The notes beneath the pieces were generated by a model. It worked only from the letters and a program-made list of their open reading frames with translations, was not told the DNA's origin and did no database searches. A program made the translations under genes and the position numbers. DNA of 64,000 bases from assembly GCF_000168295.1 (NCBI RefSeq), contig NZ_AAQJ02000001.1, forward strand, positions 1,502,412 to 1,566,411, read 5' to 3'. The stretch's first letter is position 1. Each line of letters starts with the position of its first letter. Shown here piece after piece: positions 30,166-64,000 of this stretch. The DNA comes from Rickettsiella grylli. Its GTDB lineage: Bacteria; Pseudomonadota; Gammaproteobacteria; Diplorickettsiales; Diplorickettsiaceae.

Positions 30166-30915
30166 ATGCAAAAAGAAAATTCCAATTGGGAAATAGGTTG
30201 TTTATTTGTGTTAGCGAATCTAGGAGATGTCCAATTATTGGAGTATTGGCTCGGTAAAAAAAAATTAAATATAAATTTACAAGATGAAGACGGTAATACA
30301 GCGTTGCACTACGCCGTAAGAGGAAACCACATTAATCTGATTATTTTCTTATTACAAAATAAAGCTGTTATTAGCTGGAACAAAGAGAAGCAGTCGCCTT
30401 TGCAACTGGCGTATAATCTAAAACAACATCAAGCGGTCCGTGAAATTACAAAATCGATTATTGAAGGAAACAATGCAATCGATGAAGATCAAAAATTAGA
30501 TCTCTATATTAATGATTTTATAACATATTTGAAAAAAAATTATTTGGATAGAAATATATTTTATCGTGTGCCAGCGAAACATATAAAAAGAGCGAATGCT
30601 TTAATCAGCGCAGCTAAGAACTGTTACTCAATGAAAGAATTTAGAGATCTTTTAAATAATCAACTGAATTTATTTAAAAACATTGCCTTACCGACGTTAC
30701 CTAAACGAATACTTGAGGAACGATGGTCTAAGCTTATTAAAAATAGACCTTCCAATGTTAATAATTCCCATTTTTATAAAACGGTTAATTCTTTTGTTGT
30801 GGATAGGCTTTCTAAAAAAATAATGAATAAAAATCCAGTGAATATTCTGGAACGGCGAGGTTATGGGGAGTATTCAATTAACTGTGTCAACGCTAAACTA
30901 AATCAACAATTTTAG
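30166..30915 (+). CDS. Ankyrin-repeat protein with C-terminus altered by an IS insertion
   Basis: The ATG at 30166 follows AAAGAGG by 5 bases and is preferred over the in-frame ATG at 30151. The 249-residue product has about two ankyrin repeats; the clearest is DEDGNTALHYAVRGNHINLI followed by NKEKQSPLQLAYNLKQHQ. The rest is helical and basic. The IS at 30866 supplies the last 16 codons and the stop. Joining the flanks across the IS and one copy of its target duplication restores codons for GYAKINV and a TAG, so the original protein was about 11 residues shorter. Ankyrin proteins of intracellular bacteria often bind host targets, but no secretion signal is evident. Confidence 0.75.
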   Translation: MQKENSNWEIGCLFVLANLGDVQLLEYWLGKKKLNINLQDEDGNTALHYAVRGNHINLIIFLLQNKAVISWNKEKQSPLQLAYNLKQHQAVREITKSIIEGNNAIDEDQKLDLYINDFITYLKKNYLDRNIFYRVPAKHIKRANALISAAKNCYSMKEFRDLLNNQLNLFKNIALPTLPKRILEERWSKLIKNRPSNVNNSHFYKTVNSFVVDRLSKKIMNKNPVNILERRGYGEYSINCVNAKLNQQF

Positions 30916-32177
30916 GAGTTGACATGAAACAAGCCATACTCAGTAAAGAATTTGAAGCTGAAGCGATAGCACGGCTAAAATCAGGAGAATCGTTAACAGG
31001 AAAAGATGGAATATTAACGCCGTTAATAAAACAAATTATCGAAGCATCGTTAGAGGGGGAAATAGACGCTCATTTATCAGAATCTAAAGCAACGGATATC
31101 TCAAATCGACGCAATGGAAAAACCAGTAAGTTATTAAAAACGGGGACAGAAAGTTTTGAGCTAGAAACACCCCGAGACCGTTTAGGAACGTTTGAACCAC
31201 AAATGGTTAAGAAACGTCAAACGGTTTTAAACGAGTCCTTAGATAACAAAATACTGTCATTGTATGCACTTGGGATGAGCTATGAGGCGATCCAAGAACA
31301 TCTGGCGGATATGTATGGTCTTGAGGTTTCAGCCGCTAAAATTAGCTTGATAAGCGATAAATTAATGCCGGTTATAACGGAATGGCGAAATAGACCGTTA
31401 GAATCTGTGTATCCCATCGTATTTCTCGATGCCATGCATTTTAAGGTGCGTATTGAAGGAAAAGTCAGTAGTCGTGCTTTTTATTCGGTTTTGGGTGTTA
31501 ACAATCAGGGTCGTAAAGAAATTTTAGGGCTGTATCTTTCTGAAAATGAAGGTTCTCGTTTCTGGCTACACGTTTTAAATGATTTGTGCGCTCGCGGAGT
31601 TGAGGATATTCTCATTGCTAGCATTGACGGATTAAAGGGTTTTCCTGAAGCCATTGCTGAGGTTTTCCCCCAGACAGAAATTCAGCTTTGTGTGATTCAT
31701 CAAATCCGTAACTCATTAAAGTACGTGACCAGCAAAGATCAAAAATCCTTTATGGCTGATTTAAAATTGGTTTATCGTGCGAGCTCCAAGGATTTAGCCG
31801 AGCATCGCCTATTGGAGCTTGATGAAAAATGGGGTAAAAAATACCCTGCTGTGATTAAGTCTTGGCAAACTCAATGGGAGCGTTTGTCTCAGTATTTTAA
31901 GTACCCAGAAGAGCTACGACGTATTGTTTACACAACGAATATAGTGGAGGGGTTTCATCGGCAAGTGCGTAAATATACCAAAAATAAAGGCGCTTTTACT
32001 AGTGAAAATGCCTTACTTAAATTAATTTACTGTGCCTGTCAAAAAATACTAGAAAAGTGGTACCAGCCCCTGCATAATTGGGCCTTAATTGCCTCTCAAC
32101 TACAGATATTTTTTGATGGCAGATTAAATTTACAGTTACGATAAAATTATTAATGACACAGTTTTGTGAACACTCTC
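30866..32177 (+). mobile_element. IS256-family insertion sequence, copy 1
   Basis: A 1312-bp element with imperfect terminal inverted repeats (left GGGAGTATTCAATTAACTG, right end reading inward GAGAGTGTTCACAAAACTG; 19 of 24 positions agree). It is flanked by an 8-bp target duplication with one mismatch: AGGTTATG at 30858-30865 and ATGTTATG at 32178-32185. It contains one transposase gene. The same element occurs at 52207-53518. It is inserted near the 3' end of the ankyrin gene and ends 105 bases before ispH. Confidence 0.92.
30924..32144 (+). CDS. IS256-family transposase (copy 1)
   Basis: The 406-residue protein is a complete Mutator-type DDE transposase. The catalytic residues are expected in YPIVFLDAMHF (first Asp), LIASIDGLKGFPEAI (second Asp) and VYTTNIVEGFHRQVRK (Glu). 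The family hallmark CVIHQIRNSLKYV is present. Its protein is identical to the copy at 52265-53485. No frameshift is seen, so it is probably functional. Confidence 0.95.
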   Translation: MKQAILSKEFEAEAIARLKSGESLTGKDGILTPLIKQIIEASLEGEIDAHLSESKATDISNRRNGKTSKLLKTGTESFELETPRDRLGTFEPQMVKKRQTVLNESLDNKILSLYALGMSYEAIQEHLADMYGLEVSAAKISLISDKLMPVITEWRNRPLESVYPIVFLDAMHFKVRIEGKVSSRAFYSVLGVNNQGRKEILGLYLSENEGSRFWLHVLNDLCARGVEDILIASIDGLKGFPEAIAEVFPQTEIQLCVIHQIRNSLKYVTSKDQKSFMADLKLVYRASSKDLAEHRLLELDEKWGKKYPAVIKSWQTQWERLSQYFKYPEELRRIVYTTNIVEGFHRQVRKYTKNKGAFTSENALLKLIYCACQKILEKWYQPLHNWALIASQLQIFFDGRLNLQLR

Positions 32178-32282
32178 ATGTTATGCAAAAATTAATGTTT
32201 AGAAAGAGCTCTTTTTTTGTTACGAAAATCTCAGTTTATTTTGTACACTGTCCAAACTTATTTTTTATTTAAGAACCTTGAT

Positions 32283-48786: not shown

Positions 48787-51700
48787 AATCAGTTAGCCTT
48801 TGGTGGATTGATTTATCAGGACTTTGTCCCTCTTGCTATGTAAAGGAGCTCCTAATGAAAAGTAAAGGTATAAACAAATGTTGTTTTATTACCCTTGCAA
48901 TAGGATTTAGTTCAATACTTTTAAAAGCGAATGCAGAAGTTCTACCTATACCGGCTCGTTTTTCGGGAAACGTTTATGGTAGTACGAAATATGTTGTGGG
49001 TCAGGCTGATGCGATGCTGCCTTTAGTAGGAGATGCTCAGCATAACTTTTATATTGATCCTGCATTAACTTCAGGAAGTAATTGGGAAGGTCATGGAGAT
49101 TTAGGGTTAGGGTATCGCTGGATTCAAAATGGTTCAGCGATATTAGGTGGTTATCTTTTTGGTGAATATAATCGAATGGATAATAATGTGCGTATATGGA
49201 CAATGAATCCAGGGATAGAAGCCTTAGGTTCTCGTTGGGATGCCCATCTTAATGGGTATTTTGTTATGGATAATCGGAGTAAAGTTGTTGGAACTGATTT
49301 AGAGTTTGTTAGATTTCGTGGCCATTCGGCAGTTTATAACCTATTTGATGTAACCCAAAATGTGGGAAATGGTGGTGATGTGAAACTGGGTTACCAACTC
49401 TTTCCTAAAACACCTTTAAAAGCTTTTGTAGGTAGTTATTTTTTTAGTCCAGCAGAAACAAAAAATATTTTAGGTGGAGCAGTGGGCTTAGAATATTGGG
49501 CGAACCGAAATGTGAAAGTTTTTGCTAGTTATACGTACGATAAGTTACGGCGTAGTGTGGGTTCTTTAGGGTTAGGGGTTGAATTGGGAGGTACGCACGT
49601 CCATCGTAGCGATCCTTCCATAGAAGAACGAATCACTGATCCATTAGAGCGTAATTTAGCTGAATTAGGGGGTTCGGCGGCGTTTCCGAGTCAAATGAAA
49701 AGAAAGCTAGTACGTACGATAGGTGATGGGGGCGATGGAGATGGAGGCGACGGTGATAATGGAGGTCCTGGTGGAGAAATTCCAGGAATTAATGCTTTTT
49801 TTAGCCAAACCGGTACGCCTAATAATGGCGGGGTGGGTTTGACCTTGGGTAATTGTACCTATGAGAATCCTTGTGGCCCCACTGATCTAACTAACGAAGC
49901 TACGCAAACCTTATCCGGTTATCTTCCAAACACGAAGATGTACTTTTTGGGAGGGACATACACGGCGTTAGATGTTCCTGGAGGAAGCAACCCGGTCACG
50001 ATCAGGGCCGGACAAAGTCTTACTTCGTATCCAGGGACTCCGATTTCTACGCTGAGTGGAGGACTTATCATGGAAGGCAATAATAGTGTAAATAATATGA
50101 AACTTGCTCCGACGCCTAGTACCCCCATCGGCATCAGTGGTGCTCCAAACGGTAACGTATTGATTAATGGCAGCGAGATTGGAAGTGCAGAAGCTCCATA
50201 CGTGACCGGAGTAGAGCTGACAGGCAGTGCACAAACAACGTTAGACAAAAGTAAGGTTTTTGGTTCTACAGGAGTAAGATTTTCTGAGGCTACTAGCTTG
50301 ATCAGTAATGCGAGTGAGATCAATGGTACTGTTTCAGGTATTGAGTCAACGGGTAGTGGACTTATTAATCTTACTAATCAAAGCTCAGTTAATGTAACAG
50401 GAGAAGATGGTTTGGTTGGAGTGAGTTCTACTGGAGAGGGCGAAGTGACTGTCAGTGGAGCAAGTTCAATTAATGTAGATGCGACGGGCAGTGCGGTTGG
50501 TTATTCAAGTGGTGGTAGCGGTGCAGTCAACTTTAGTGGAGGCAGTGCAATTAATGTGAAATCGACTGGCGGTCAAGCCATAGGAATTCATACGCTTACA
50601 AGCAGCGTTGCCCCTGTAATGTTGGATGAAACACAAATTAAGGTCGATGGCCAAACCAATCCTATTGGGGTACTCACCGAGGGAGAGGGAAGTTACACAG
50701 CTAGAAATCCTAAAATTGAAGTGATCGGTGGTACTTCAGCTCAAGGAGTTCTTTCCTCAGGAAGTGGTGCTATTAAAACAGAGGCAGGCACAATCACGGT
50801 AGATGGAAATGGACAAGCCGCGGCCACAGGGTTTTCAACCACGAGCACGAGTAGCGGCAACGTCGAACTCAAGGGAACAAAGATTAATGTGTCGGGGGGT
50901 AATAGAACGCGAGGACTTGACGTCGGAGGAAGTGGACCTATTGAACTAACAGGTGCAGGTTCAATCACAGTAAATGCAGTTGGTTCTTCTGGAATTTTGG
51001 GAATTTCAAGAAACAGTGGATCCACTAGTGATATCACGTTGGCGGATAACTTTTCAGTGGATGCAATAGGAGGTGAAGGTACAATAGGAATTTCTGATGA
51101 AGGAACAGGAACTTTCACACTAGGTGACGAAAATATTATAAGTGCTATGGGAGATACTAATATTACTGCATTTTCCAAAACAAGTGCTGGAGAGGTTAAC
51201 ATAGGCAGTAGCAAACTGATGGCAAATGCTCCAGCAGGACAAGCATTAGGGCTTTCAGCAGATGGCCCTGCTGTTATTAAAATGAATGGAACACAAATAC
51301 AAGTGGAAAGCGGAGGTGGGAGAGGCGCTTGGTTCAAACAAACGAGTAAGGGTGAGTTAACCAATACCATAATCACGGCGCCCAACCGAGCATTAGAGGT
51401 TCAAGATAGAAGTCAGGTTACAGTTACTGGAGGTCATTTTACTGTGGGAAATAATCGCGCAAGTGCGATTATTTCTGGTCCAGGAACTAGTACTATTAAC
51501 ATAAGTGGCACTAGGATTGATGTTACTGGGCCTGGTATTCCTCCTAATGCAGAACTTAATGGGATAGCCAAGAACCGGGCTGGATCTGGTGCGGTGAGAG
51601 CAAAAGATTTAATTATAAATGTGTCGAGCCCGACTACTGGCACCTCTCGGGGGGCGACTACAACTGAACGTACAAGCGGCGTGTTTACTATAGAAGGATC

Positions 51701-51824
51701 AAAAATCAATGTGAAGGGCGGCAATACTACTAGTGAGGGGCGCAGCGGCCCAGTTGTTCCACGGGGTGGCCCCATAACATCAACTAATAACACCTGTACG
51801 CTAAATGGACGATCAGTAAATTGT
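48787..51824 (+). repeat. Second unit of the adhesin tandem duplication (first unit 45065-48639)
   Basis: Sequence identity starts at AATCAGTTAGCC (45065/48787) and ends at GTAAATTGT (48639/51824). Outside these points the flanks differ. The near-absence of silent changes between the copies points to a recent duplication or ongoing gene conversion. Confidence 0.92.
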
Positions 51825-51827
51825 TAA
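48855..51827 (+). CDS. Giant inverse-autotransporter adhesin, tandem copy 2
   Basis: The 990-residue protein is almost identical to copy 1 in signal peptide, barrel and passenger. It has one 192-residue module instead of two, and a 12-residue insert in the linker (DGGDGDNGGPGG type) that copy 1 lacks. A Thr is added near the C-terminus and it ends at RSVNC rather than RSVNCNS. The upstream leader is repeated exactly. Intergenic spacing to copy 1 is about 206 bases, without a clear terminator, so both could be expressed. An intrinsic terminator follows it. Confidence 0.78.
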   Translation: MKSKGINKCCFITLAIGFSSILLKANAEVLPIPARFSGNVYGSTKYVVGQADAMLPLVGDAQHNFYIDPALTSGSNWEGHGDLGLGYRWIQNGSAILGGYLFGEYNRMDNNVRIWTMNPGIEALGSRWDAHLNGYFVMDNRSKVVGTDLEFVRFRGHSAVYNLFDVTQNVGNGGDVKLGYQLFPKTPLKAFVGSYFFSPAETKNILGGAVGLEYWANRNVKVFASYTYDKLRRSVGSLGLGVELGGTHVHRSDPSIEERITDPLERNLAELGGSAAFPSQMKRKLVRTIGDGGDGDGGDGDNGGPGGEIPGINAFFSQTGTPNNGGVGLTLGNCTYENPCGPTDLTNEATQTLSGYLPNTKMYFLGGTYTALDVPGGSNPVTIRAGQSLTSYPGTPISTLSGGLIMEGNNSVNNMKLAPTPSTPIGISGAPNGNVLINGSEIGSAEAPYVTGVELTGSAQTTLDKSKVFGSTGVRFSEATSLISNASEINGTVSGIESTGSGLINLTNQSSVNVTGEDGLVGVSSTGEGEVTVSGASSINVDATGSAVGYSSGGSGAVNFSGGSAINVKSTGGQAIGIHTLTSSVAPVMLDETQIKVDGQTNPIGVLTEGEGSYTARNPKIEVIGGTSAQGVLSSGSGAIKTEAGTITVDGNGQAAATGFSTTSTSSGNVELKGTKINVSGGNRTRGLDVGGSGPIELTGAGSITVNAVGSSGILGISRNSGSTSDITLADNFSVDAIGGEGTIGISDEGTGTFTLGDENIISAMGDTNITAFSKTSAGEVNIGSSKLMANAPAGQALGLSADGPAVIKMNGTQIQVESGGGRGAWFKQTSKGELTNTIITAPNRALEVQDRSQVTVTGGHFTVGNNRASAIISGPGTSTINISGTRIDVTGPGIPPNAELNGIAKNRAGSGAVRAKDLIINVSSPTTGTSRGATTTERTSGVFTIEGSKINVKGGNTTSEGRSGPVVPRGGPITSTNNTCTLNGRSVNC

Positions 51828-52206: not shown

Positions 52207-53518
52207 GGGAGTATTCAATTAACTGTGTCAACGCTAAACTAAATCAACAATTTTAGGAGTTGACATGAAACAAGCCATACTCAGTAAAGAATTTGAAGCT
52301 GAAGCGATAGCACGGCTAAAATCAGGAGAATCGTTAACAGGAAAAGATGGAATATTAACGCCGTTAATAAAACAAATTATCGAAGCATCGTTAGAGGGGG
52401 AAATAGACGCTCATTTATCAGAATCTAAAGCAACGGATATCTCAAATCGACGCAATGGAAAAACCAGTAAGTTATTAAAAACGGGGACAGAAAGTTTTGA
52501 GCTAGAAACACCCCGAGACCGTTTAGGAACGTTTGAACCACAAATGGTTAAGAAACGTCAAACGGTTTTAAACGAGTCCTTAGATAACAAAATACTGTCA
52601 TTGTATGCACTTGGGATGAGCTATGAGGCGATCCAAGAACATCTGGCGGATATGTATGGTCTTGAGGTTTCAGCCGCTAAAATTAGCTTGATAAGCGATA
52701 AATTAATGCCGGTTATAACGGAATGGCGAAATAGACCGTTAGAATCTGTGTATCCCATCGTATTTCTCGATGCCATGCATTTTAAGGTGCGTATTGAAGG
52801 AAAAGTCAGTAGTCGTGCTTTTTATTCGGTTTTGGGTGTTAACAATCAGGGTCGTAAAGAAATTTTAGGGCTGTATCTTTCTGAAAATGAAGGTTCTCGT
52901 TTCTGGCTACACGTTTTAAATGATTTGTGCGCTCGCGGAGTTGAGGATATTCTCATTGCTAGCATTGACGGATTAAAGGGTTTTCCTGAAGCCATTGCTG
53001 AGGTTTTCCCCCAGACAGAAATTCAGCTTTGTGTGATTCATCAAATCCGTAACTCATTAAAGTACGTGACCAGCAAAGATCAAAAATCCTTTATGGCTGA
53101 TTTAAAATTGGTTTATCGTGCGAGCTCCAAGGATTTAGCCGAGCATCGCCTATTGGAGCTTGATGAAAAATGGGGTAAAAAATACCCTGCTGTGATTAAG
53201 TCTTGGCAAACTCAATGGGAGCGTTTGTCTCAGTATTTTAAGTACCCAGAAGAGCTACGACGTATTGTTTACACAACGAATATAGTGGAGGGGTTTCATC
53301 GGCAAGTGCGTAAATATACCAAAAATAAAGGCGCTTTTACTAGTGAAAATGCCTTACTTAAATTAATTTACTGTGCCTGTCAAAAAATACTAGAAAAGTG
53401 GTACCAGCCCCTGCATAATTGGGCCTTAATTGCCTCTCAACTACAGATATTTTTTGATGGCAGATTAAATTTACAGTTACGATAAAATTATTAATGACAC
53501 AGTTTTGTGAACACTCTC
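52207..53518 (+). mobile_element. IS256-family insertion sequence, copy 2
   Basis: Same 1312-bp element as at 30866-32177, in the same orientation. It is flanked by a perfect 8-bp target duplication AAATAAAG at 52199-52206 and 53519-53526. The exact duplication shows simple, recent transposition. It ends 36 bases before the oxygenase start codon. Confidence 0.95.
52265..53485 (+). CDS. IS256-family transposase (copy 2)
   Basis: A 406-residue protein identical to the one encoded at 30924-32144, with intact DDE motifs. TAGGAGTTGAC supplies the ribosome site before the ATG. Confidence 0.95.
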   Translation: MKQAILSKEFEAEAIARLKSGESLTGKDGILTPLIKQIIEASLEGEIDAHLSESKATDISNRRNGKTSKLLKTGTESFELETPRDRLGTFEPQMVKKRQTVLNESLDNKILSLYALGMSYEAIQEHLADMYGLEVSAAKISLISDKLMPVITEWRNRPLESVYPIVFLDAMHFKVRIEGKVSSRAFYSVLGVNNQGRKEILGLYLSENEGSRFWLHVLNDLCARGVEDILIASIDGLKGFPEAIAEVFPQTEIQLCVIHQIRNSLKYVTSKDQKSFMADLKLVYRASSKDLAEHRLLELDEKWGKKYPAVIKSWQTQWERLSQYFKYPEELRRIVYTTNIVEGFHRQVRKYTKNKGAFTSENALLKLIYCACQKILEKWYQPLHNWALIASQLQIFFDGRLNLQLR

Positions 53519-53554
53519 AAATAAAGTTTAAGTTTTATTTTAAAAAATTATTTT

Positions 53555-54343
53555 ATGAATGAATTACGGTCATCTAAACATAATCTGGAAAGAATTTTTA
53601 ACAGATGTCCTAAACTAGAACTTCCTCTTCCTTGTTATTTTCAAATAAAAAATTCTATAAGTATTTCTTATGAAAATTGTGCAGATCTACTAGATAAATA
53701 TGGTATCTGTATTTTTTCTTTAAATTACCGAGATAATAGTTTTACTTTCAAACAACTTATTCAAAGTTTAGGTATTTTGCACACTCATAATGAAAAAGAT
53801 AGTTTTATATGGAATATTAAGATATCGAGAGAAAATAAAAAACAATTGCCTAGATCACATAAAGATTATGAATTTCACTTTCATACTGATTGTTCCTATG
53901 AAGAAAATGTACCTGATTATTTTGCACTATATGTATTACATGCAGATCAAAAAATGGGAGGTAACAATTTAATTGTTGATAGTAAAATATTACTTAATTC
54001 TTTATCTAAAGAAACTCTCAAAGTATTACAAAATTTTCCTGTAACAATAAAGGTGCCGCACGAGTTTTTTAAGGGAAAAAGTTGTATACAAGCATGTATT
54101 ATTGATGCTAATTGTAATATACGATTTCGCCGTGAAATTATTGATTTAGATAGCCTCACTTTTAAACAATTAAAGGCAATAGAAGAATTAGAAAATTTAA
54201 TTTATTTTCCACAATATAGCCGGAAACTTACATTGAAAAATGATCAAATACTTATACTAAATAATAAAAGATTTCTGCATGCAAGAACCCATGTAAAAGA
54301 TTCGAGGAGGCACTTGCAACGTATTCGTTTTTTTCGTGGCTAA
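53555..54343 (+). CDS. TauD/TfdA-like Fe(II)/2-oxoglutarate-dependent oxygenase
   Basis: The 262-residue protein has the iron facial triad: His110 and Asp112 in FHFHTDCSY and His242 in NNKRFLHART. The likely 2-oxoglutarate-binding Arg256 (HLQRIRFF) is 14 residues after the distal His, as in clavaminate-synthase-like enzymes. Length is typical. Such enzymes hydroxylate, desaturate or cyclise amino acids, amines and peptide intermediates. The gene is very AT-rich, unlike the core. Its upstream region was replaced by IS256 copy 2 and I see no good ribosome site. The neighbour downstream is an ATP-grasp-like ligase, which suggests a shared pathway. Confidence 0.8.
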   Translation: MNELRSSKHNLERIFNRCPKLELPLPCYFQIKNSISISYENCADLLDKYGICIFSLNYRDNSFTFKQLIQSLGILHTHNEKDSFIWNIKISRENKKQLPRSHKDYEFHFHTDCSYEENVPDYFALYVLHADQKMGGNNLIVDSKILLNSLSKETLKVLQNFPVTIKVPHEFFKGKSCIQACIIDANCNIRFRREIIDLDSLTFKQLKAIEELENLIYFPQYSRKLTLKNDQILILNNKRFLHARTHVKDSRRHLQRIRFFRG

Positions 54344-54384
54344 TTATTAGTAAGTGAAATTAGAATTTTTTATTAAAAGAAAGT

Positions 54385-54743
54385 GAGTCTGTAAACCATT
54401 TTGTGTAGTGCTTCATGGCGCACTACACAATTTTATTTACAGACTCACGTCATGGGAAAATGTCATTCCATTTTTTGGCTATCCCACTGAAATTCGTAAG
54501 GTGATTTATACTACCAATGCGATAGAATCACTGAATATGACTTTACGGAAATTTATAAAAAATAAACGGATTTTTCCCTCAGATGAAGCGGCATTTAAAC
54601 AAATTTATTTGGCGATGCAAATTATTGCTAAAAAATGGACTATGCCTATCCGCGATTGGAAGCCTGCTTTGGCTCGCTTTACTATCGAATTTGGTGACAG
54701 AATAGGCACCATAGCTAATTTACACAAATGTTCTTGCAGACTC
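54385..54743 (+). mobile_element. Miniature IS256-family derivative with intact ends
   Basis: A 359-bp element starts GAGTCTGTAAACC and ends with the inverted TTGCAGACTC. It is flanked by a perfect 8-bp duplication AAGAAAGT (54377-54384, 54744-54751). Inside, the first 62 bases form a hairpin because a second, inverted end copy (54418-54446) follows the first. Then comes an in-frame C-terminal transposase piece (NVIPFFGYPTEIRKVIYTTN, AIESLNMTLRKFIKNKRIF, WTMPIRDWKPALARFTIEFG). It has no complete transposase, so it either moved in trans or shrank after insertion. It splits the oxygenase and ligase genes. Confidence 0.85.
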
Positions 54744-54759
54744 AAGAAAGTATATATCT

Positions 54760-56034
54760 ATGTTATCTATAAATCATTTTATGCCTAATCCTTTAATAAA
54801 TTGTTGTCATCTTCAAAGAGACAAACATACTTTAATAAAGAATTTGAATAAACTTTATACTCCTATATGTTTTGATTCCTTAAATATCAATCCTTATCCG
54901 TTATTATTTGATAAACAATTATTTTCTCAATTAAAGGATTGTCATTCATTACTTATAGAAGTAATACCAAAAATAGTAAGTAATTTTTTTATAGATCCCT
55001 CTCTACAGCAGATTATTGCATTAGATGATAAAACACTTGATTTATTACACTCATTAGAAGATAAGCCGTATGAAATAGGGTTTATTCGTCCTGATTTTGT
55101 TTTAGATAAGAACTATCAAATTAAAATATGTGAAATAAATGCTAGATTTCCTTTGAATGCATTTGTTCTTTCTCAATGCTTATCAGATGAAATATTCAAA
55201 AAATTTGAAATTGAGCTTTCTTTTCTAAATGTAAATAAAATAAAAAATTTGGACATCTTCGAGAATTTTTTTGATTTTAAACATTCTATTCATATTATTT
55301 TTAATAAAGAAAAAAGTTTAGATATTTTCTTATTAAAAACTGTAGGAAAAAAAATATTTTCAAATTTAAAAGTTGAATTGATATCTTCACCTAAATTTTT
55401 ATTTAAAAATAAAAAAAAATGTGTTCAGATGATACTTAATTTACATCAACAGGAATTACTTAAATTAAAACCAAGTTTACTTAACGAAATAATCCAACAA
55501 ACTCATTTTAATGATATAAGAACGATATTCATAGTACACGACAAACGTTTTTTATCCATATTGTCAAATAGAACAATTATGTCTAATTACATTTCTCTTG
55601 AAAAATATAATAGATTAACGAGCTATATTATCCCCACTTATATTTTAAATAATGATATTATACATAATATTAAATCTAGTATGAAAAACTGGGTTTTAAA
55701 AAAGAATACGGCGGGTAAAGGCGAAGGTATGATTATCGGTAAAGAGGATCACTCTACCAAAATGCATGACATACTAAGTAATAAAAGACTTGAATATATT
55801 GCCCAACCATTTGTTAATCAACCATTTTTTCGGTTTCTAAGTGATTCATCGCCAATTACAAATAATATTTTCAACAAAAACTACTATAATTTGTACCTGG
55901 TTGGCACAATACTTAGTTTTAATAATATTTTTTTAGGACCAGGTCTTTTAAGAGGTTCTTCTAAATCAATTATAAATATCGCACAAGGTGATACTACTAT
56001 TTTTATACCATTTTCTTTAAATTACAATAATTGA
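54760..56034 (+). CDS. Probable circularly permuted ATP-grasp-type ligase
   Basis: The 424-residue protein (or 417 from ATG 54781) has RPDFVLDKNYQIKICEINAR at about 110-129, resembling the (R)xDF...(E)xNad/rxP block of glutathionylspermidine-synthase-like and permuted ATP-grasp proteins. Glu125 and Asn127 are the expected Mg2+ ligands. A later VLKKNTAGKGEGMIIGKE (about 314-331) resembles the ATP-binding glycine-rich loop. ATP-grasp enzymes join a carboxylate to an amine or thiol via an acyl-phosphate. It is 417 bases after the oxygenase gene, with the miniature IS between, and shares its high AT content. The ribosome site is weak. The family assignment is tentative. Confidence 0.55.
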   Translation: MLSINHFMPNPLINCCHLQRDKHTLIKNLNKLYTPICFDSLNINPYPLLFDKQLFSQLKDCHSLLIEVIPKIVSNFFIDPSLQQIIALDDKTLDLLHSLEDKPYEIGFIRPDFVLDKNYQIKICEINARFPLNAFVLSQCLSDEIFKKFEIELSFLNVNKIKNLDIFENFFDFKHSIHIIFNKEKSLDIFLLKTVGKKIFSNLKVELISSPKFLFKNKKKCVQMILNLHQQELLKLKPSLLNEIIQQTHFNDIRTIFIVHDKRFLSILSNRTIMSNYISLEKYNRLTSYIIPTYILNNDIIHNIKSSMKNWVLKKNTAGKGEGMIIGKEDHSTKMHDILSNKRLEYIAQPFVNQPFFRFLSDSSPITNNIFNKNYYNLYLVGTILSFNNIFLGPGLLRGSSKSIINIAQGDTTIFIPFSLNYNN

Positions 56035-56357
56035 ATATTACATTTTTTTGTTAATCTGGATGAGATATATTCACAGAAAATATAATAGCAGTTCAAGAGT
56101 TTCAATCATAAAACACTTATTTTTTATCATTTGAAATTTTCTGAAAATTCTAACTCAAATGCGATGAGGGGTTAAATTAGTTGTATTTTAATGGTAAAAT
56201 GCGTTAATTAAATAACAAATTATTTTTACTAAGGTAAAGATTATTTTTTAACCTAAAAATAATAGCCAGCATTGGCCTTAATTCCCAAGGATTTCTAGTA
56301 AAATATAGCAGCTAAACGCACATTCGTAGTAAATGAGTAAATGAAATGTGCGGAAAT
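56035..56357. other. Intergenic region between ligase and pilin genes
   Basis: About 320 AT-rich bases between convergent genes. I see no gene, RNA or clear terminator. It marks the end of the accessory island. Confidence 0.4.
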
Positions 56358-56750
56358 TTAAGCTGACCAGCATTGACTTGAGCCACTGCCTTTATTGGTT
56401 TTTTCACCTAATTGATTCAGCATAAAAAGATAGCATTCTGGATCAGTAAATTGTGCTTTGGCGGATAGTTGATACGTATTAGAGGTACTTTTTAAAGTGA
56501 GTTGATAAAATTTTTTTTCAGTCATGTTCTTTAAATGGAGTTTGCTAAAACTGGCTTTTTCATAACTATTATTATTTTCAAGATAGTAAATTTCCATATG
56601 TTGAGCAAGATTAATTAAGGCAATTTTTGCTTCGCTACGACGCGTTTTTTTTACCAAATGTCTGTAAATAGGGGTGGAGAAAGTCGTTAAGATGCCGATT
56701 ATCACTAAGACGATCAGTAATTCAAATAAAGTAAATCCAGCAGTATTCAC
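56358..56750 (-). CDS. Type IV pilin-like protein (PilE family)
   Basis: The 130-residue prepilin has a short leader MNTAG, then FTLFELLIVLVIIGILTTFS: cleavage after Gly5, methylated Phe and the conserved Glu at +5. The C-terminus has a Cys pair (PECYLF...SQCWSA) like the D-loop of minor pilins such as PilE. It would be cut by PilD and enter the pilus or its base. No other pil genes are adjacent. Together with the ComEA-like protein it could serve DNA uptake. Confidence 0.85.
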   Translation of the reverse strand: MNTAGFTLFELLIVLVIIGILTTFSTPIYRHLVKKTRRSEAKIALINLAQHMEIYYLENNNSYEKASFSKLHLKNMTEKKFYQLTLKSTSNTYQLSAKAQFTDPECYLFMLNQLGEKTNKGSGSSQCWSA

Positions 56751-56842
56751 GCTATAAACTCCTTATTATGCTTTATTATAAAAATAAACATAATAAAAGA
56801 GTTTATACAAGTTATTTATCAAAAACGGATTGTATTTTTTTG

Positions 56843-57802
56843 TTAACGAAATCCATGAGGTAAAATGCCCAGATTCGTACTGAGTTGTTGTGCAAACGCC
56901 GCGCCAATACGATCAGAAAGTTGTTGTAGAAGGCCGGGTTTAACCGTGTAATCGACAATGTTTTTATTTTTAATTAATTCACGGGATAAACTATTTAAAT
57001 CTCCAAAACCGTCGATTAACCCTAAAGGTAATGCCTCCTCGCCGGTCCAGGCTAATCCTGAAAATAATTCAGGATTATTTTTTAAACGATTTCCGCGGCC
57101 TTGTTTAACCGCATGAATGAATTGCTGATGAACATTGGCAAGCATACGTTCGGCAATCCGTTTTTCATCTAATTTTTCTGGTGAAAATGGATCTAAAAAA
57201 CCTTTATGATCGCCAGCGGTTAATAAACGACGTTCGACGCCGACTTTTTTCATCGTCTCTACAAAACCAAATCCATCCATTAAAACACCAATTGATCCGA
57301 CGAGACTTGAGGGATTCGCATAAATACGATCACTTGCAGAGGCGATGTAATAAGCCGCCGATGCACACAGATCATCACAGACCGCATAGAGCTTGGTTTT
57401 GGGATATTGATGACGTAAATAACGGATTTCATGATAGATCTGTGCGGCTTGCACTGGACTTCCACCGGGACTATTAATGCGAAGAATAACGGTACGGGTA
57501 TTTTTGTCCTCAAAGGCATTTTGTAGACCTTCTATAACATTGTCCGCATTAGCCGCTGAGTTATCGTTAATGATCCCTTTGATATCAACAAGTCCAATGT
57601 GTGCTTTGGCTTTAGAAGTCGTTGGAAGGTTAGGCGTTGATGGCCATAAAATAAGCAAAAAGCTTAAAAAAATCAAAAAAAGTAAAAATTTAAAAAAAAT
57701 GTTCCATCGTCTTTTACGTCGTTGTTCTTTTAAGGCCTCAAAAAGTAATTTTTCCAGGGTTTTACGTTGCCACGTTGGATCACTTAATAATTCTTCTGCC
57801 AT
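56843..57802 (-). CDS. sppA: Signal peptide peptidase SppA-like S49 serine protease
   Basis: The 319-residue protein has one N-terminal membrane helix (FFKFLLFLIFLSFLLILW), then a protease domain with INSPGGSPVQAAQIYHEI. The catalytic Ser is in DDLCASAAYYIAS and the Lys in AGDHKGFLDPF. This is the short (single-repeat) form found in many bacteria. It degrades leftover signal peptides in the membrane. It is divergent from clpB. Confidence 0.92.
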   Translation of the reverse strand: MAEELLSDPTWQRKTLEKLLFEALKEQRRKRRWNIFFKFLLFLIFLSFLLILWPSTPNLPTTSKAKAHIGLVDIKGIINDNSAANADNVIEGLQNAFEDKNTRTVILRINSPGGSPVQAAQIYHEIRYLRHQYPKTKLYAVCDDLCASAAYYIASASDRIYANPSSLVGSIGVLMDGFGFVETMKKVGVERRLLTAGDHKGFLDPFSPEKLDEKRIAERMLANVHQQFIHAVKQGRGNRLKNNPELFSGLAWTGEEALPLGLIDGFGDLNSLSRELIKNKNIVDYTVKPGLLQQLSDRIGAAFAQQLSTNLGILPHGFR

Positions 57803-58045
57803 ATAAACCCCTGCTGAAACGTTAAATAGGTAAATTCGCTTAGTTTACCTCTTTTTTATGACAGGGGACATATTGATCTAAAAATGAATCATTGACTTTC
57901 TATTCATCGACTTGTGCAGTGGTATTGGGTATTGATGTTCTATTAGAATGATCTGAAATTTTTCCAGAGTTGACTTGATTTTTCCGAATTAGACTAAACT
58001 ATTGAGAAGACAGTCATCCAATTGAATGATCATTCGAGGGGTAAT

Positions 58046-60652
58046 ATGAGTCTTAATAAATTAACAAGTCAATTTCAGAATGCGTTGGCCGAATCGCAAT
58101 CAATCGCAATAGGGCATGATAACGCGTTTATTGAACCTATTCATTTGATGTCTGCTTTATTACGACAAGAAAAGGGTACGGTGAGGCCTCTATTAAGTAA
58201 AGCGAACGTTAATTTAAATCAATTAACGAAAAGTGTAGATGAAGCAATCGCACACTTGCCGAGCGTAGAAACTTCAACACCAGGTGAAATTTATCCTTCT
58301 AAAGATTTTACTCGTTTATTGAATATAACCGATAAATTTGCACAACAAAGACAGGATGAGTATCTATCCAGTGAATTATTTGTATTGGCCGCAGTGGGGG
58401 ATAAAAGTATTTTAGGTGAGTTATTAAGGAAAGCAGGTGCTGATAAAACAATGATTGAACAAGCAATAAAGGATATACGAGGTGGCGAGACCGTGAATGA
58501 TCCTGAAGCGGAAGGTCGTCGAGGGGCTTTAGAAAAATATACCATTGATTTGACAACACAAGCGTCACAAGGAAAATTAGATCCGGTGATTGGTCGAGAT
58601 GATGTGATACGTCGAACCATTCAAGTGTTACAACGACGAACCAAAAATAATCCGGTTCTTATTGGTGAACCTGGAGTGGGTAAAACGGCTGTCGTGGAAG
58701 GGCTTGCTCAACGTATTGTTAATCACGAAGTTCCAGAAGGATTAAGAAATAAACGTTTACTGGCTTTAGATATCGGTTCATTGATTGCGGGGGCTAAGTA
58801 TCGTGGTGAATTTGAAGAGCGATTAAAAGCGGTATTAAATGAACTTGCAAAGCAAGAAGGGCAAATTATTTTATTTATTGATGAGTTGCATACCATGGTG
58901 GGGGCAGGGAAAGCGGAAGGGGCTATGGATGCGGGGAATATGCTAAAACCTGCTTTAGCAAGAGGTCAATTACACTGTATTGGTGCAACGACATTAAATG
59001 AATACCGAAACTATATTGAAAAGGATGCTGCATTAGAACGTCGTTTTCAAAAAATTCTGGTTGATGAGCCGAATGTTGAAGATACGATCGCTATTTTACG
59101 GGGTTTAAAGCAACGTTATGAAATTCATCATGGCGTCGAAATTATGGATTCTGCTATTGTTGCGGCCGCAACGTTATCGCATCGTTATATTTCAGATAGA
59201 AATTTACCGGACAAAGCCATTGATCTGATTGATGAAGCGGCGAGTCGGATTCGAATTGAAATTGATTCTAAACCCGAAAAATTAGATCGATTAGATAGGC
59301 GATTAATTCAGTTAAAAATTGAACGAGAAGCACTCAAAAAAGAAACCGATGAATCCTCCAAAATCAGATTGAAAAATTTAGACAATGAGATTACTGAACT
59401 TTCAAAAAAATATGCCGATCTGAATGAGATTTGGAAAGCTGAAAAGGCAACCTTACAAGGCGAGCAAAAAATTAAAAGTGAACTGGAAAAGGCTCAATTT
59501 GAGTTAGAAAAAGCACGCCGTTCGGGCGATTTGAATCGAATGTCTGAACTCCAATATGGCCATATTCCTGCTTTAGAAAAAAAATTAGTGGCCGCTCAAA
59601 AAATAGAAAAAAAAGAACAACCCGCTTTAATACGCAATAAGGTAAGCGAGAAAGAAATTGCAGAAATTGTTTCACAATGGACCGGTATCCCTGTTGCGAA
59701 GATGCTCGAGGGTGAACGAGAAAAATTATTACAGATGGAAGACGCACTCCATAAACGGGTGGTGGGTCAAGATGAAGCGATTTCTGTGGTAGCCAATGCC
59801 ATTCGGCGGTCTCGCGCAGGACTTTCTGATCCGAATCGTCCCATCGGATCATTTATTTTTTCAGGACCTACGGGTGTGGGTAAAACTGAAGTGTGCAAAG
59901 CTTTAGCAGGATTTTTATTTGATTCCGATGAGGCGATGGTGCGTTTAGACATGTCCGAATTTATGGAAAAACATTCGGTCGCACGGTTAATTGGTGCTCC
60001 TCCAGGCTATGTGGGTTACGAAGAAGGCGGCTATCTTACTGAAGCAGTGCGTCGAAAGCCTTATTCTGTGGTGCTTTTGGATGAAATTGAAAAAGCACAT
60101 GCGGATGTATTCAATATTTTATTACAAGTATTAGAAGATGGTCGGTTAACCGATAGTCATGGACGTACCGTCGACTTTCGAAATACAGTGATTGTTATGA
60201 CATCGAATTTAGGATCGCAAATTATTCAAGAATTTACTTCAAAGCAGGACTATGCCGCTTTAAAAAGTACATTAATGGATATCATTGCGCAACATTTTCG
60301 ACCTGAATTTATTAATCGCGTTGATGAAGTGGTTGTATTTCATGCCTTAAATGAAACACAAATTCATTCGATTACAAAAATTCAATTACAACGCCTCCGT
60401 CAACGTCTTGGTGAACGAGACTTACACTTAGAAGTGAGCGAAGCTGCCATAAACCATATTGCTAAAATGGGTTACGATCCTGTTTATGGCGCACGACCTT
60501 TAAAACGGACGATTCAGCAAGAATTGGAAAACCCCATTGCCAAGGAAATGCTTGAAGAAAAATTTCTGCCGGGGGACAAAATTTTTGTGGATTATAGTGA
60601 CGATAAAATAAAATTAACCGCAAAAAAACAACGTCAAAAAATGAGGAAATAA
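58046..60652 (+). CDS. clpB: Disaggregase ClpB (Hsp100)
   Basis: The ATG at 58046 follows GAGGGG by 5 bases and starts [21 protein letters not shown]; an in-frame ATG at 58022 would add 8 residues. The 868-residue protein has the Clp-N domain, the first AAA module ([21 protein letters not shown]), the coiled-coil middle domain typical of ClpB, and the second module ([26 protein letters not shown]). It rescues aggregated proteins with DnaK. No clear heat-shock sigma-32 promoter could be confirmed upstream. Confidence 0.97.
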
Positions 60653-60671
60653 AAAATAAACAACGATAAAA

Positions 60672-62042
60672 CTATCCAATGGATTGCGCCAATTCTGTTG
60701 CATAACCTAAATAATTGGTCGGAGATAATTGGAGTAGTCTTTTTTTAGCATGATTGGGTATTTTTAAATCGTTAATAAATTGGTGAAGCATTTTTTGATC
60801 AACCTTTTTTCCTTGGGTTAATTGTTTTAATTGCTCATAAGGCAGGTTAGCGGAATAACGTCTTAAAACGGTTTGTATGGCTTCGGCCAGTATTTCCCAA
60901 TGCTGATTCAGATCTTCCAAAAGTTTTGTGTCATCAACGGAAATTTTTTTTAAACCACATAATAAACTGTTATAGCCGATTAGCGTGTATGCGAACGCTG
61001 ATCCTAGATTGCGAAGTAATGTTGAATCTCTTAAATCTCGCTGCCAGCGGGAAATAGGCAAGGTTCTGGAAAAATGTTGATAAAGACTATTTGCTAAACT
61101 GAGATTTCCTTCTGCATTTTCAAAATCGATAGGATTAATTTTATGAGGCATTGTCGAAGAACCTATTTCACCAGGTTCGGTGTTTTGCTTGAAATAACCG
61201 AGAGAAATATAACCCCAACAATCAGCGGCTAAATTTATGAATATGTTATTGATTCGTTTTAAATTGTCGCAGTATTCCGCAATCGTGTCATGTGGTTCAA
61301 TCTGGGTGGTATATGCGTTCCAATCTAGATTTAAACGGGTTACGAATTTTTTGCTGAGTGCAGGCCAGTTAATATCAGGGTAAGCAATTCGATGTGCATT
61401 ATAATTACCAATCGCACCATTAAATTTACCGCGTAGTTTAATAGCCATCAATAATTTTTTTTGTTCGATTAAACGATTCGCAAAATTGGCCAATTCTTTA
61501 CCCATGGTGGTCGGTACAGCCGGTTGACCATGTGTGCGGCTAAGCATGGGGTGTGATGCATAGCGATGTGCATATTTTTTTAAACACGTAATCAGTTTTT
61601 GAATAGCGGGTAATAAATGTTGAGTACGTACTTCCTTGAGCATTAAGGCATAAGACAGGTTATTGATATCCTCTGAGGTACACGCAAAATGTACAAACTC
61701 GCGAATAGGTTTTAATGAAGGGATTTTAGTTAATTTTTCCTTTAAAAAATATTCGACGGCTTTAATATCATGCCGCGTCGTTTTTTCTAACGTTTTAATT
61801 TTTTCAGCATCTTTCAAACTAAATTTTTCAATGATAGCCTCTAATTGTTGTTGGCTTTTTAAGGAAAACTTTGGAATTTCCTTGATATGAGGTTCATGAG
61901 CCAATGTTTGTAGCCAACGTATTTCAATCAATACTCTAAAATAAAATAAACCATACTCACTGCATAAACAACGCAAACTATCGGTTTTATCAGAATAACG
62001 TCCATCAATTGGGGAAATCGCAGTTAAAGAATTAAGTTGCAC
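60672..62042 (-). CDS. purB: Adenylosuccinate lyase
   Basis: The 456-residue protein has the fumarase/aspartase-superfamily signature GSSTMPHKINPIDFENAEG and the N-terminal LTAISPIDGRYSDKT typical of gammaproteobacterial PurB. It acts twice in purine synthesis, releasing fumarate from SAICAR and adenylosuccinate. It is convergent with clpB, only 19 bases apart, with no separate terminator visible. Confidence 0.97.
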   Translation of the reverse strand: MQLNSLTAISPIDGRYSDKTDSLRCLCSEYGLFYFRVLIEIRWLQTLAHEPHIKEIPKFSLKSQQQLEAIIEKFSLKDAEKIKTLEKTTRHDIKAVEYFLKEKLTKIPSLKPIREFVHFACTSEDINNLSYALMLKEVRTQHLLPAIQKLITCLKKYAHRYASHPMLSRTHGQPAVPTTMGKELANFANRLIEQKKLLMAIKLRGKFNGAIGNYNAHRIAYPDINWPALSKKFVTRLNLDWNAYTTQIEPHDTIAEYCDNLKRINNIFINLAADCWGYISLGYFKQNTEPGEIGSSTMPHKINPIDFENAEGNLSLANSLYQHFSRTLPISRWQRDLRDSTLLRNLGSAFAYTLIGYNSLLCGLKKISVDDTKLLEDLNQHWEILAEAIQTVLRRYSANLPYEQLKQLTQGKKVDQKMLHQFINDLKIPNHAKKRLLQLSPTNYLGYATELAQSIG

Positions 62043-62062
62043 AAAGGCCTCGATAAATTTAT

Positions 62063-62398
62063 TTACAGTTCTTCGGATCCCTCTGGATCATATTTTTCGG
62101 ATCGATCATGTCGTTTTTCTTTACTTTTTAATTTATGTTTATTGATTTGCTGCTCTATTTTATCAATTAATTCATCAATAGCCGTGTAAAGATTTTCATT
62201 TTTAGCACGGGCATAAAATTCATTACCATGGGTATGCATTAACGCTTTAGCGACTTGATCTAGATGTTCAAGACTTAAAGTAATATGTAATGTTGAGGTT
62301 TTATGCGTTATACGTTCCAGTCGTTTAAATTTATCTAAAATATATTGTTTTAAAGCATCGGTCACTTTAATGCCATCGTCTGTAATCGTAATTTGCAT
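62063..62398 (-). CDS. hpf: Ribosome hibernation promoting factor (short HPF/YhbH type)
   Basis: The 111-residue protein begins MQITITDDGIKVTDALKQYI and has VAKALMHTHGNEFYARAKNE and LYTAIDELIDKIEQQINKHK, the short HPF pattern. It binds the 30S subunit in stationary phase and helps form 100S dimers. In most gammaproteobacteria it lies after rpoN in the lpt-rpoN-hpf-ptsN cluster; here the gene before it is lptB. Confidence 0.93.
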   Translation of the reverse strand: MQITITDDGIKVTDALKQYILDKFKRLERITHKTSTLHITLSLEHLDQVAKALMHTHGNEFYARAKNENLYTAIDELIDKIEQQINKHKLKSKEKRHDRSEKYDPEGSEEL

Positions 62399-62608
62399 AA
62401 GGCCCTCTTTATAATTAATTGTTTTAAATAATGTTCTAAAAAATGCCCACCCGATTATACCTTAGATTAGGCTCTCCTGTGGAGAGGGTGAGCGTTATCG
62501 ATCCATTTTAAATCGATTGCGTGTTATGAAAAATGAGCGTCAAAATGAGTTGGTTTGTAAAAACTGATTAAAAATTAAACCAATTTTGCCTTGTATTTAT
62601 TATTAAGG
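62399..62608. promoter_or_regulatory. Gap between lptB and hpf, where rpoN usually lies
   Basis: About 210 bases with no coding trace of rpoN. A TATAAT on the reverse strand (62454-62459 region) could be the -10 box of a dedicated hpf promoter. The CTCTCC-TGT-GGAGAG hairpin at 62472-62486 has no following U-run on either strand, so it is not a standard terminator. Confidence 0.4.
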
Positions 62609-63334
62609 TTATAGATCAAATTCATGTCCTAAATAAATTTCTCTGACCCGTTGATTCTTCAATACTTCCTGTGGTGTGCCTACATAGATTGTTTTTCCCT
62701 CATTCACGATATAAGCCCGTTTGCAAATCGCGAGTGTTTCTCTGACATTATGGTCGGTAATCAAAACGCCTATACCCCGTTGGCTTAAGTGAATAATCAT
62801 GCGTTTAATATCAACAACAGAAATCGGATCGATTCCTGCAAAAGGTTCGTCTAATAGCATAAATTTGGGTTCCATCGCCAAAGCGCGCGCTATTTCGACA
62901 CGCCGGCGTTCACCGCCGGATAAACGAATGCCTAGCGTGTCACGGATAGGTGTAATATGAAACTCGCGAAGTAAATTTTCAAGGTGTTGTTTGCGTTGTT
63001 CTTTTGATAAATCATGACGTAATTGAAGAATAGCAAGAATATTATCAGCCACGGTTAATTTGCGAAATATCGAAGGTTCTTGTGGTAAATAACCAATCCC
63101 TGCTTTAGCGCGAGCATGCATCGGCAAATGCGTAATGTTCTGATTATTGAGTAAAATTTTTCCTTGTGTGCAGGTCACTAAACCGACAATTAAATAAAAG
63201 CTTGTGGTTTTTCCTGCGCCATTGGGGCCGAGTAAACCAATCACTTCTCCGGTTTCTAATTCAAGCGAAACATTTTCGACAACAATACGTGAATGATACC
63301 GTTTCGTTAAATGGATAGCGTTTAATTTATTCAT
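62609..63334 (-). CDS. lptB: LPS export ABC transporter ATPase LptB
   Basis: The 241-residue ABC ATPase has Walker [10 protein letters not shown], the Q-loop [14 protein letters not shown], signature [15 protein letters not shown], Walker [16 protein letters not shown] and the H-loop DHNVRET. It powers LPS extraction with LptFG. It overlaps lptA by 8 bases. Confidence 0.96.
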
Positions 63335-63848
63335 GATTCAAGGGTGCTATTGTAATTTGAGTGTGTCCTTTTGGTGATAAAGGAGAACCGATCGTTTTCG
63401 TTTTAAAATCGTAATTAATTTGATACCCTTTAAAATGATTTTTTCCTTGTACCATTTCAGCATTTCCTATGGCTTCTAAGTACTCTTTTTTTGGATAATA
63501 ATAAATCGTTTTTCCGGTAGCGATTAATTGAGGACGATGAGGAAATATAAACGCTTGATATCGCGCTGGATTTCCTATGGCGATTATCTTATTAATTTGG
63601 CCATTTTGATCGAAATAACTGGTCGCATAATCTGCAGTGAGGACGGCTGAACCTTGGGTCAGTTTAATATGTCCTCGATAAATGCCTTGTTTCGTTTTAT
63701 TATTATAGGTCACACTATCCGATTCAAAATAAGCAAGATCATTGGAGTGTGCGCAAGCAACAGTCGACAGGCAAAACACGATCGATAGATTGACGAACAA
63801 TAAATAAGCTTTCTTTATTTTAAATATTTTTTGTTCAAGTGCATTCAA
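63327..63848 (-). CDS. lptA: LPS periplasmic bridge protein LptA
   Basis: The 173-residue precursor has a signal peptide (about residues 14-34, ending ACAHS) and the OstA-type beta-jellyroll with [20 protein letters not shown] and [13 protein letters not shown]. LptA oligomers carry LPS across the periplasm. The start overlaps nothing upstream; 9 bases separate it from the lptC stop. The lptC-lptA-lptB order is standard. Confidence 0.92.
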
Positions 63849-63857
63849 GAGTAAACC

Positions 63858-64000
63858 TCATTTACTTTTTTCGGGCATGAATTGACTCTTTACCTGAGAT
63901 AAAAGTCGAATTGTTTTGGTATTGAAATTAGCATGGAGTCCTACCGCATGGATGACTTGGTTCATCCGCGTGATGCGAACCGGTGCGGACGTATCCGCTA
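63858..64000 (-). CDS. lptC: LPS export protein LptC, C-terminal end, cut by the window edge
   Basis: Forty-six codons of the reverse strand end at a TGA (63858-63860) and read VRITRMNQVIHAVGLHANFN then TKTIRLLSQVKSQF, the usual C-terminal stretch of LptC (a strand with gmxanl...xxxLlsxVrg pattern). Its position before lptA supports the call. The rest is outside the window. Confidence 0.85.
   Translation of the reverse strand, partial: ADTSAPVRITRMNQVIHAVGLHANFNTKTIRLLSQVKSQFMPEKSK

Follow-up and report, generated by a model that had tools for sequence, protein, structure and literature searches.

Two neighbouring genes of Rickettsiella grylli, a Rickettsiella-type intracellular bacterium, probably direct the synthesis of an epoxysuccinyl-amino acid that would covalently block papain-family cysteine proteases such as host cathepsins. 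They lie in a stretch of 64,000 nucleotides from contig NZ_AAQJ02000001.1 (positions 1,502,412 to 1,566,411 of the forward strand; hereafter the window) and encode an Fe(II)/2-oxoglutarate oxygenase (53555–54343) and an ATP-grasp ligase (54760–56034), both with intact open reading frames (ORFs) on the + strand. As judged from sequence comparison, the ligase is a member of the Cp1B family in the pathway for E-64, an inhibitor of cysteine proteases in wide use, the biosynthesis of which was described in 2025 for fungi, a single cyanobacterial enzyme serving as the bacterial example (PMC12568646). The same article mentioned that enzymes similar to Cp1B exist in "a few bacteria" and that cyanobacteria have clusters of three genes; its main text uses neither "Rickettsiella" nor "endosymbiont", and among the matches listed in a search of titles and abstract beginnings of open-licence PMC papers, no other one tied epoxysuccinyl chemistry to Rickettsiella or to intracellular bacteria. 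What we rate as new is the E-64 logic cut down to two enzymes in intracellular bacteria. An earlier note, made from the DNA letters of the window, had presented the pair as a possible uncharacterised pathway, a description that has to be given up because the ligase falls in the Cp1B family.

The Ligase and Its Kinship to Cp1B

The ligase gene encodes a protein of 424 residues which, by analogy with Cp1B, is predicted to join trans-epoxysuccinate to an L-amino acid in an ATP-dependent reaction releasing ADP (epoxysuccinate:L-amino acid ligase). The start at 54760 was supported by the initial MLSINHF stretch, which is also found in relative P0002; the nearest database entry begins 7 codons later. 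The sequence-profile comparison revealed a full-length match to Cp1B (E-value 1.6e-61, positions 12–414 of 416), the window ligase alone matched it as a single sequence (3.9e-16), and Cp1B was its best PDB match in sequence and in fold. The predicted structure presented a three-domain ATP-grasp fold akin to that of glutathione and glutathionylspermidine synthetases, as the earlier note had supposed for a protein with RPDF...EINAR and a late glycine-rich loop (GKGEG), both of which were found in the translation. As to a family assignment among ATP-grasp or glutathionylspermidine-synthase proteins, the fold bore the supposition out but the family models did not: the window ligase stayed below every Pfam and NCBIfam cut-off, and PF28486, the label of all 65 ligase homologues found, was not reported by the Pfam scan.

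The catalytic residues of Cp1B were likewise preserved. R139, D141, E163 and N165, whose mutants lost activity (PMC12568646), correspond to R110, D112, E125 and N127 in the 424-residue numbering, and were placed by alignment to 9cjn in Arg110-Pro-Asp112 (55087–55095, + strand) and Glu125-Ile-Asn127 (55132–55140, + strand), the numbering of the paper being taken as the chain numbering minus 15, as deduced from how the four residues are spaced. Of the 65 homologues, 49 entered the ligase alignment (A1), which excluded fused and short sequences and a few others. Calcineurin B-like protein 2, a PDB match of the window ligase alone (E-values 0.0039 and 0.013), and the Pfam families DUF4518, AAA_lid_RFC1 and ATPgrasp_ST, all below cut-off, were set aside as chance or too weak. 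No ligase match was found in 72,556 plasmid records, and the 14 pattern matches in IMG/VR viral contigs included no ligase relative.

The Oxygenase

The 262-residue oxygenase was assigned to the TauD family by its match to PF02668 (E-value 6.7e-21), by an AlphaFold2 model with the TauD-superfamily fold (predicted local distance difference test, pLDDT, 90.8) and by its kinship to the oxygenase half of the Penicillium fusion protein P0065. The gene is intact, as had been claimed, and the four residues singled out by the earlier note were invariant in the 33 rows of alignment A2 (32 of 45 homologues plus the window sequence): His110-Thr-Asp112 (53882–53890, + strand) supplies the first two predicted iron ligands, His242 (54278–54280, + strand) is probably the third and Arg256 (54320–54322, + strand) is probably the arginine that binds 2-oxoglutarate, the latter two by analogy with the TauD family. 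The 2-His-1-Asp iron site of TauD-type oxygenases is thus present in the window protein, which is predicted to act as a trans-epoxysuccinate synthase in the role of Cp1A and MfaA. None of the 19 matches of the oxygenase profile to PDB sequences was named Cp1A or MfaA.

Pairing, Fusion and Distribution

The oxygenase and the ligase are a conserved unit. In 51 ligase loci from named genomes, a related oxygenase adjoined the ligase or was separated from it by a single gene in 14 (encoded on the other strand in L008, and split in L004 and L022), and was found ~1–2 kb downstream in a further five, all from Bacteroidota. A TauD domain was fused to 7 of the 65 ligase homologues, in the order oxygenase-ligase in P0007 and P0065 and ligase-oxygenase in P0043, P0058, P0059, P0062 and P0063; the first two could be annotation errors because of their eukaryotic labels. 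The ligase half of P0065 matched Cp1B with an E-value of 5.6e-148, and its other half is of the window oxygenase type. Moreover, among 16 genomes of the Rickettsiella family, the ligase was present in five and the oxygenase in the same five. In four relatives of this family, among them G011 with its interrupted ligase, both genes are on one strand with 15–30 nt separating the open frames, each counted from its first start, which leaves no room for an insertion sequence (IS), and the conserved adjacency looked for in the earlier note was thereby found. The distances among ligases and among oxygenases were correlated, with r of 0.91 over 23 pairs and 0.85 in an 18-pair subset and none of 10,000 permutations as high in either case, although part of this correlation may reflect the shared ancestry of the organisms.

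In an Ignavibacteriales genome the ligase family is present as three copies in tandem (L025:8684–12518), and the surrounding 21-kb locus gave no match to the oxygenase; the family therefore has roles beyond the pair.

Phylogeny and Probable Horizontal Transfer

Trees were built from 25 ligases and 26 oxygenases hand-chosen from the fetched loci and proteins, the distance test above covering the 23 with both. The locus frames of Piscirickettsia (L022) and Vibrio ostreicida (L004) were split or cut off and were left unjoined; database entries were used instead, with P0021 and P0093 standing in for Piscirickettsia and P0104 for V. ostreicida. In the ligase tree, Rickettsiella, Aquarickettsia, Piscirickettsia, Vibrio and the Mollicute UO1 ligase formed one clade (support 100/98), and in the oxygenase tree the same four genera formed one clade with an oxygenase labelled Geosiphon (99/99). 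The labels in these clades come from several classes and phyla, which is most simply explained by horizontal transfer. Long branches and uncertain positions were seen for the fungal and metagenomic fusion rows; in the midpoint-rooted oxygenase tree the fungal rows fell on the side of the window sequence, away from Bacteroidota, their exact place being unsure owing to a long stem. We tentatively suggest, as a conjecture that may well fail, that cell-dwelling bacteria not related to one another (Rickettsiella, Piscirickettsia, Midichloriaceae such as Aquarickettsia, and a Mollicute), as well as Vibrio, share by horizontal transfer an epoxysuccinyl-peptide weapon which chemically switches off host lysosomal cathepsins, Rickettsiella having the minimal two-enzyme form.

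The Wider Cassette and Known Systems

In other bacteria the pair is accompanied by further genes. Vibrio sagamiensis and V. ostreicida (L002, L004) present a row of oxygenase, ligase, MATE-like transporter and adenylate-forming (ANL) enzyme, and Candidatus Aquarickettsia rohweri (L005) has the oxygenase, a ligase-ANL fusion of 843 residues (L005:6624–9152) and a downstream MatE gene with one internal stop. These loci hold the same two families as the window, in one supported clade with Rickettsiella, and add the ANL enzyme and an exporter. Ligase, ANL enzyme and oxygenase also occur together in Obscuribacter, Isosphaeraceae and others (L003, L006, L007, L008, L009, L013), and an ANL protein (P0119) and a ligase (P0030) are both labelled Mollicutes bacterium UO1. 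The ANL family was PaaK-like by profile (E-value 2.5e-31 to phenylacetate-CoA ligase). It was described that the A, B and D enzymes are the minimum set for E-64 in fungi (PMC12568646), and the bacterial oxygenase-ligase-ANL trio therefore fits by role, the ANL enzyme being a putative counterpart of Cp1D by role; no fungal name occurred among the best 120 of 129 ANL homologues (7,996 best candidates scored). The Piscirickettsia LF-89 draft, in which the ligase is followed by a stretch of N, gave no ANL match, and the genomes of L038 and L017 gave none in the same search in which V. ostreicida did match.

The cp1 and cp2 clusters for E-64 in Aspergillus flavus (Cp1A, Cp1B, Cp1D; PMC12568646) likewise place an Fe(II)/2-oxoglutarate oxygenase beside a Cp1B-family ligase with conserved catalytic residues. 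In contrast, the window pair is bacterial and intracellular, it has neither an adjoining third amide-bond synthetase nor a Cp1C-type decarboxylase, its genes are split by an IS remnant and its ligase is distant in sequence from the Penicillium relative (24% identity). The mfa cluster of the cyanobacterium Microcoleus, in which MfaA yields trans-epoxysuccinate, is a bacterial version of the cassette, likened here from its published description, and comprises three genes as against two in the window (PMC12568646).

Proposed Pathway and Significance

In the proposed pathway, the oxygenase would epoxidise free fumarate to (2S,3S)-trans-epoxysuccinate, the ligase would phosphorylate one carboxylate and join it to an L-amino acid, probably a hydrophobic one, and the product would leave the cell and alkylate the catalytic cysteine of proteases in lysosomes or phagosomes; the substrates, stereochemistry, product, export and target in this scheme are those that we infer for the pair. 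The order of epoxidation before ligation is proposed because Cp1A epoxidises free fumarate and did not act on fumaryl-Ile-putrescine (PMC12568646), and the reverse order assumed in the earlier note, ligation first and oxidation after, is thus probably wrong. Since no third enzyme was detected, the pathway is predicted to end at the epoxysuccinyl-amino acid in its free form. The epoxide is described as the group through which epoxysuccinyl compounds inactivate cysteine proteases (PMC12568646), and the intracellular lifestyle points to a target in the host. Coxiella burnetii, which shares the NCBI family Coxiellaceae with Rickettsiella, was reported to actively remove cathepsin B, and overexpressed cathepsin B to impair its replication (PMC12022341). 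If true, the proposed pathway would achieve without a protein what Coxiella achieves with an effector that removes cathepsin B. It would also provide a testable idea, namely that intracellular bacteria might survive lysosome-like compartments or shape symbiosis by chemical inhibition of cathepsins, instead of or besides injected proteins. Moreover, compact enzyme sets, including the natural ligase-ANL fusion, may make epoxysuccinyl peptides.

Contrary Evidence and Alternative Explanations

Several observations weigh against the production of a protease inhibitor by the pair, and they are considered here together with the alternative explanations. Identity to the Penicillium halves is low (24% for the ligase and 29% for the oxygenase), and AnkG, a distant relative of Cp1B, is proposed to act on other substrates (PMC12568646). 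In 32 of the 51 ligase loci, some of them on short contigs, no related oxygenase was found within 5 kb, so the ligase family also works on its own, and common ancestry of the organisms may account for part of the distance correlation. The pair is patchy, both genes being missing from 11 of the 16 Rickettsiella-family genomes, and its frames are not whole everywhere: in family genome G011 an inserted repeat breaks up the ligase, and the L004 and L022 assemblies have a split oxygenase frame. In the window genome itself, IS sequences may have cut the expression of the pair. An IS256-family element of 1313 bp (52207–53519, + strand; transposase ORF 52265–53485, PF00872 E-value 1.8e-100), identical to a copy at 30866–32178, ends 35 bp ahead of the oxygenase start. 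When its last A is assigned to the flank, the 8-bp duplication AAATAAAG lies on both sides of the element and is probably the target duplication of the insertion. Between the two genes lies a decayed IS256-family remnant (54383–54748, + strand, ends approximate) made of a transposase gene end and terminal repeats, which matched positions 278–336 of 338 of the NCBIfam IS256 model. It contains a hairpin with 29-nt arms (inverted repeat I1, 54383–54448), and within this a terminator-like site (54401–54430); the region contained two sites of this kind against 0.7 ± 0.8 expected by chance, and the folding of 54344–54759 gave a z of –5.6.

The upstream element, the intergenic remnant with its hairpin, the interrupted G011 ligase and the missing genes of the family would all suit a recent relic, in which an ancestral inhibitor pathway has been silenced in the window strain by IS256 sequences. 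This explanation is unlikely, if worth keeping in mind, as both frames and all catalytic residues are intact and the divergence from three relatives is mainly synonymous, with nonsynonymous divergence (dN) of 0.26–0.46 and synonymous divergence (dS) of 0.97–1.75 for both genes. The average dN/dS of ~0.24–0.32 suggests that both genes are on average under purifying selection, although such an average would not reveal very recent silencing.

It is similarly doubtful that the same enzyme families make another product, the oxygenase hydroxylating or epoxidising a different small acid and the ligase coupling that acid to an amino acid, with no cysteine-protease inhibitor resulting. Function within the TauD family is hard to predict, the structural neighbours of the oxygenase model were diverse hydroxylases, and no NCBIfam equivalog cut-off for any named TauD function was reached, the nearest being trimethyllysine dioxygenase (42.8 of 268.3 bits). 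The pocket residue matching Cp1B F175 varies within the family, and AnkG, a ligase distantly related to Cp1B, was proposed to join other substrates (PMC12568646). Against another product, MfaA makes trans-epoxysuccinate even though Mfa and Cp1 enzymes are only ~20% identical (PMC12568646), low identity being therefore compatible with function, and in the fungal record P0065 the window oxygenase type is joined to a close Cp1B relative.

Neither the ANL family (nine-row alignment A3) nor the transporter family (A4) was detected in the five pair-bearing Rickettsiella-family genomes, and for this reason no E-64 proper is expected from them. The controls were recovered in 3 of 3 genomes for A3, all of which had supplied rows to that alignment, and in 2 of 2 for A4, of which one had supplied a profile row and Aquarickettsia had not. 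An initial search with the Aquarickettsia ANL domain as sole query was empty and had no positive control; it was repeated with A3. Nor does any gene for an ANL amide-bond synthetase adjoin the window pair. A complete three-part inhibitor resembling E-64 would then require an unlinked enzyme for the last amide, and the genome does encode four PF00501 proteins, including a stand-alone adenylation protein of 596 residues and a 2101-residue protein similar to nonribosomal peptide synthetases (NRPS). Neither candidate tracks the pair: condensation domains are present in 15 of the 16 family genomes, and copies of the 596-residue protein (at least 55% identity, range 55–67%) were found in just 2 of the 15 other genomes, both lacking the ligase. 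This explanation is accordingly improbable, and an unlinked third enzyme was rejected.

The least tenable explanation, which we consider very nearly negligible, is that the two genes have nothing in common beyond lying side by side, the ligase being an ordinary enzyme of the glutathionylspermidine- or glutathione-synthetase type, since both families co-occur and fuse and the ligase matched YgiC/YjfC, glutathionylspermidine synthetase and eukaryotic-type glutathione synthetase, which have different partners, at 3.3e-4 or weaker against 1.6e-61 for Cp1B; a glutathionylspermidine synthase identity was thus rejected, the fold being common, the sequence not, and the score of the curated family unreached.

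Composition and Neighbouring Features

The 596-residue adenylation protein is encoded on the minus strand at L082:1157–2944 (G000 C1 1348156–1349943), and has as neighbours a histidine kinase and a GNAT protein with two domains. The 2101-residue NRPS-like protein, also on the minus strand (L083:5065–11367; G000 C1 ~1141064–1147366) and beside a hybrid histidine kinase, consists of ~750 unassigned N-terminal residues followed by condensation, adenylation, carrier and thioesterase domains.

The pair is AT-rich, as the earlier note had observed: in one-kb segments (n = 64) GC was 25–31% over 53001–56000, with the lowest value of the whole stretch at 55001–56000, against 33–47% in 51 of the other 61 segments, the remaining 10 also being below 33%. 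Its remark that no transporter or regulator stands beside the pair was confirmed for the directly adjoining genes from the window ORFs and their translations.

The same genome contains, at ~C1:1417152–1428945, an exact inverted copy (11,794 bp) of window positions 52207–64000; the copy in the window reaches the contig end. This could represent either a genuine inverted duplication that arose through IS256 or an artefact of the assembly folding back on itself; matching IS flanks were present only at the window copy.

In G011, two copies of a short element that encodes GMNSEGVxACRTQDVSRPNFSRVMRTNFGDTMAEILREHSDSL break up the ligase gene (L076:9636–10110); we take this element to resemble the palindromic elements that invade Rickettsia genes. 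Finally, just upstream of the IS256 element, the window encodes a secreted-looking protein of 990 residues (48855–51827) with long Gly/Ser/Thr repeats, the N-terminal part of which is presumably inverse-autotransporter-like.
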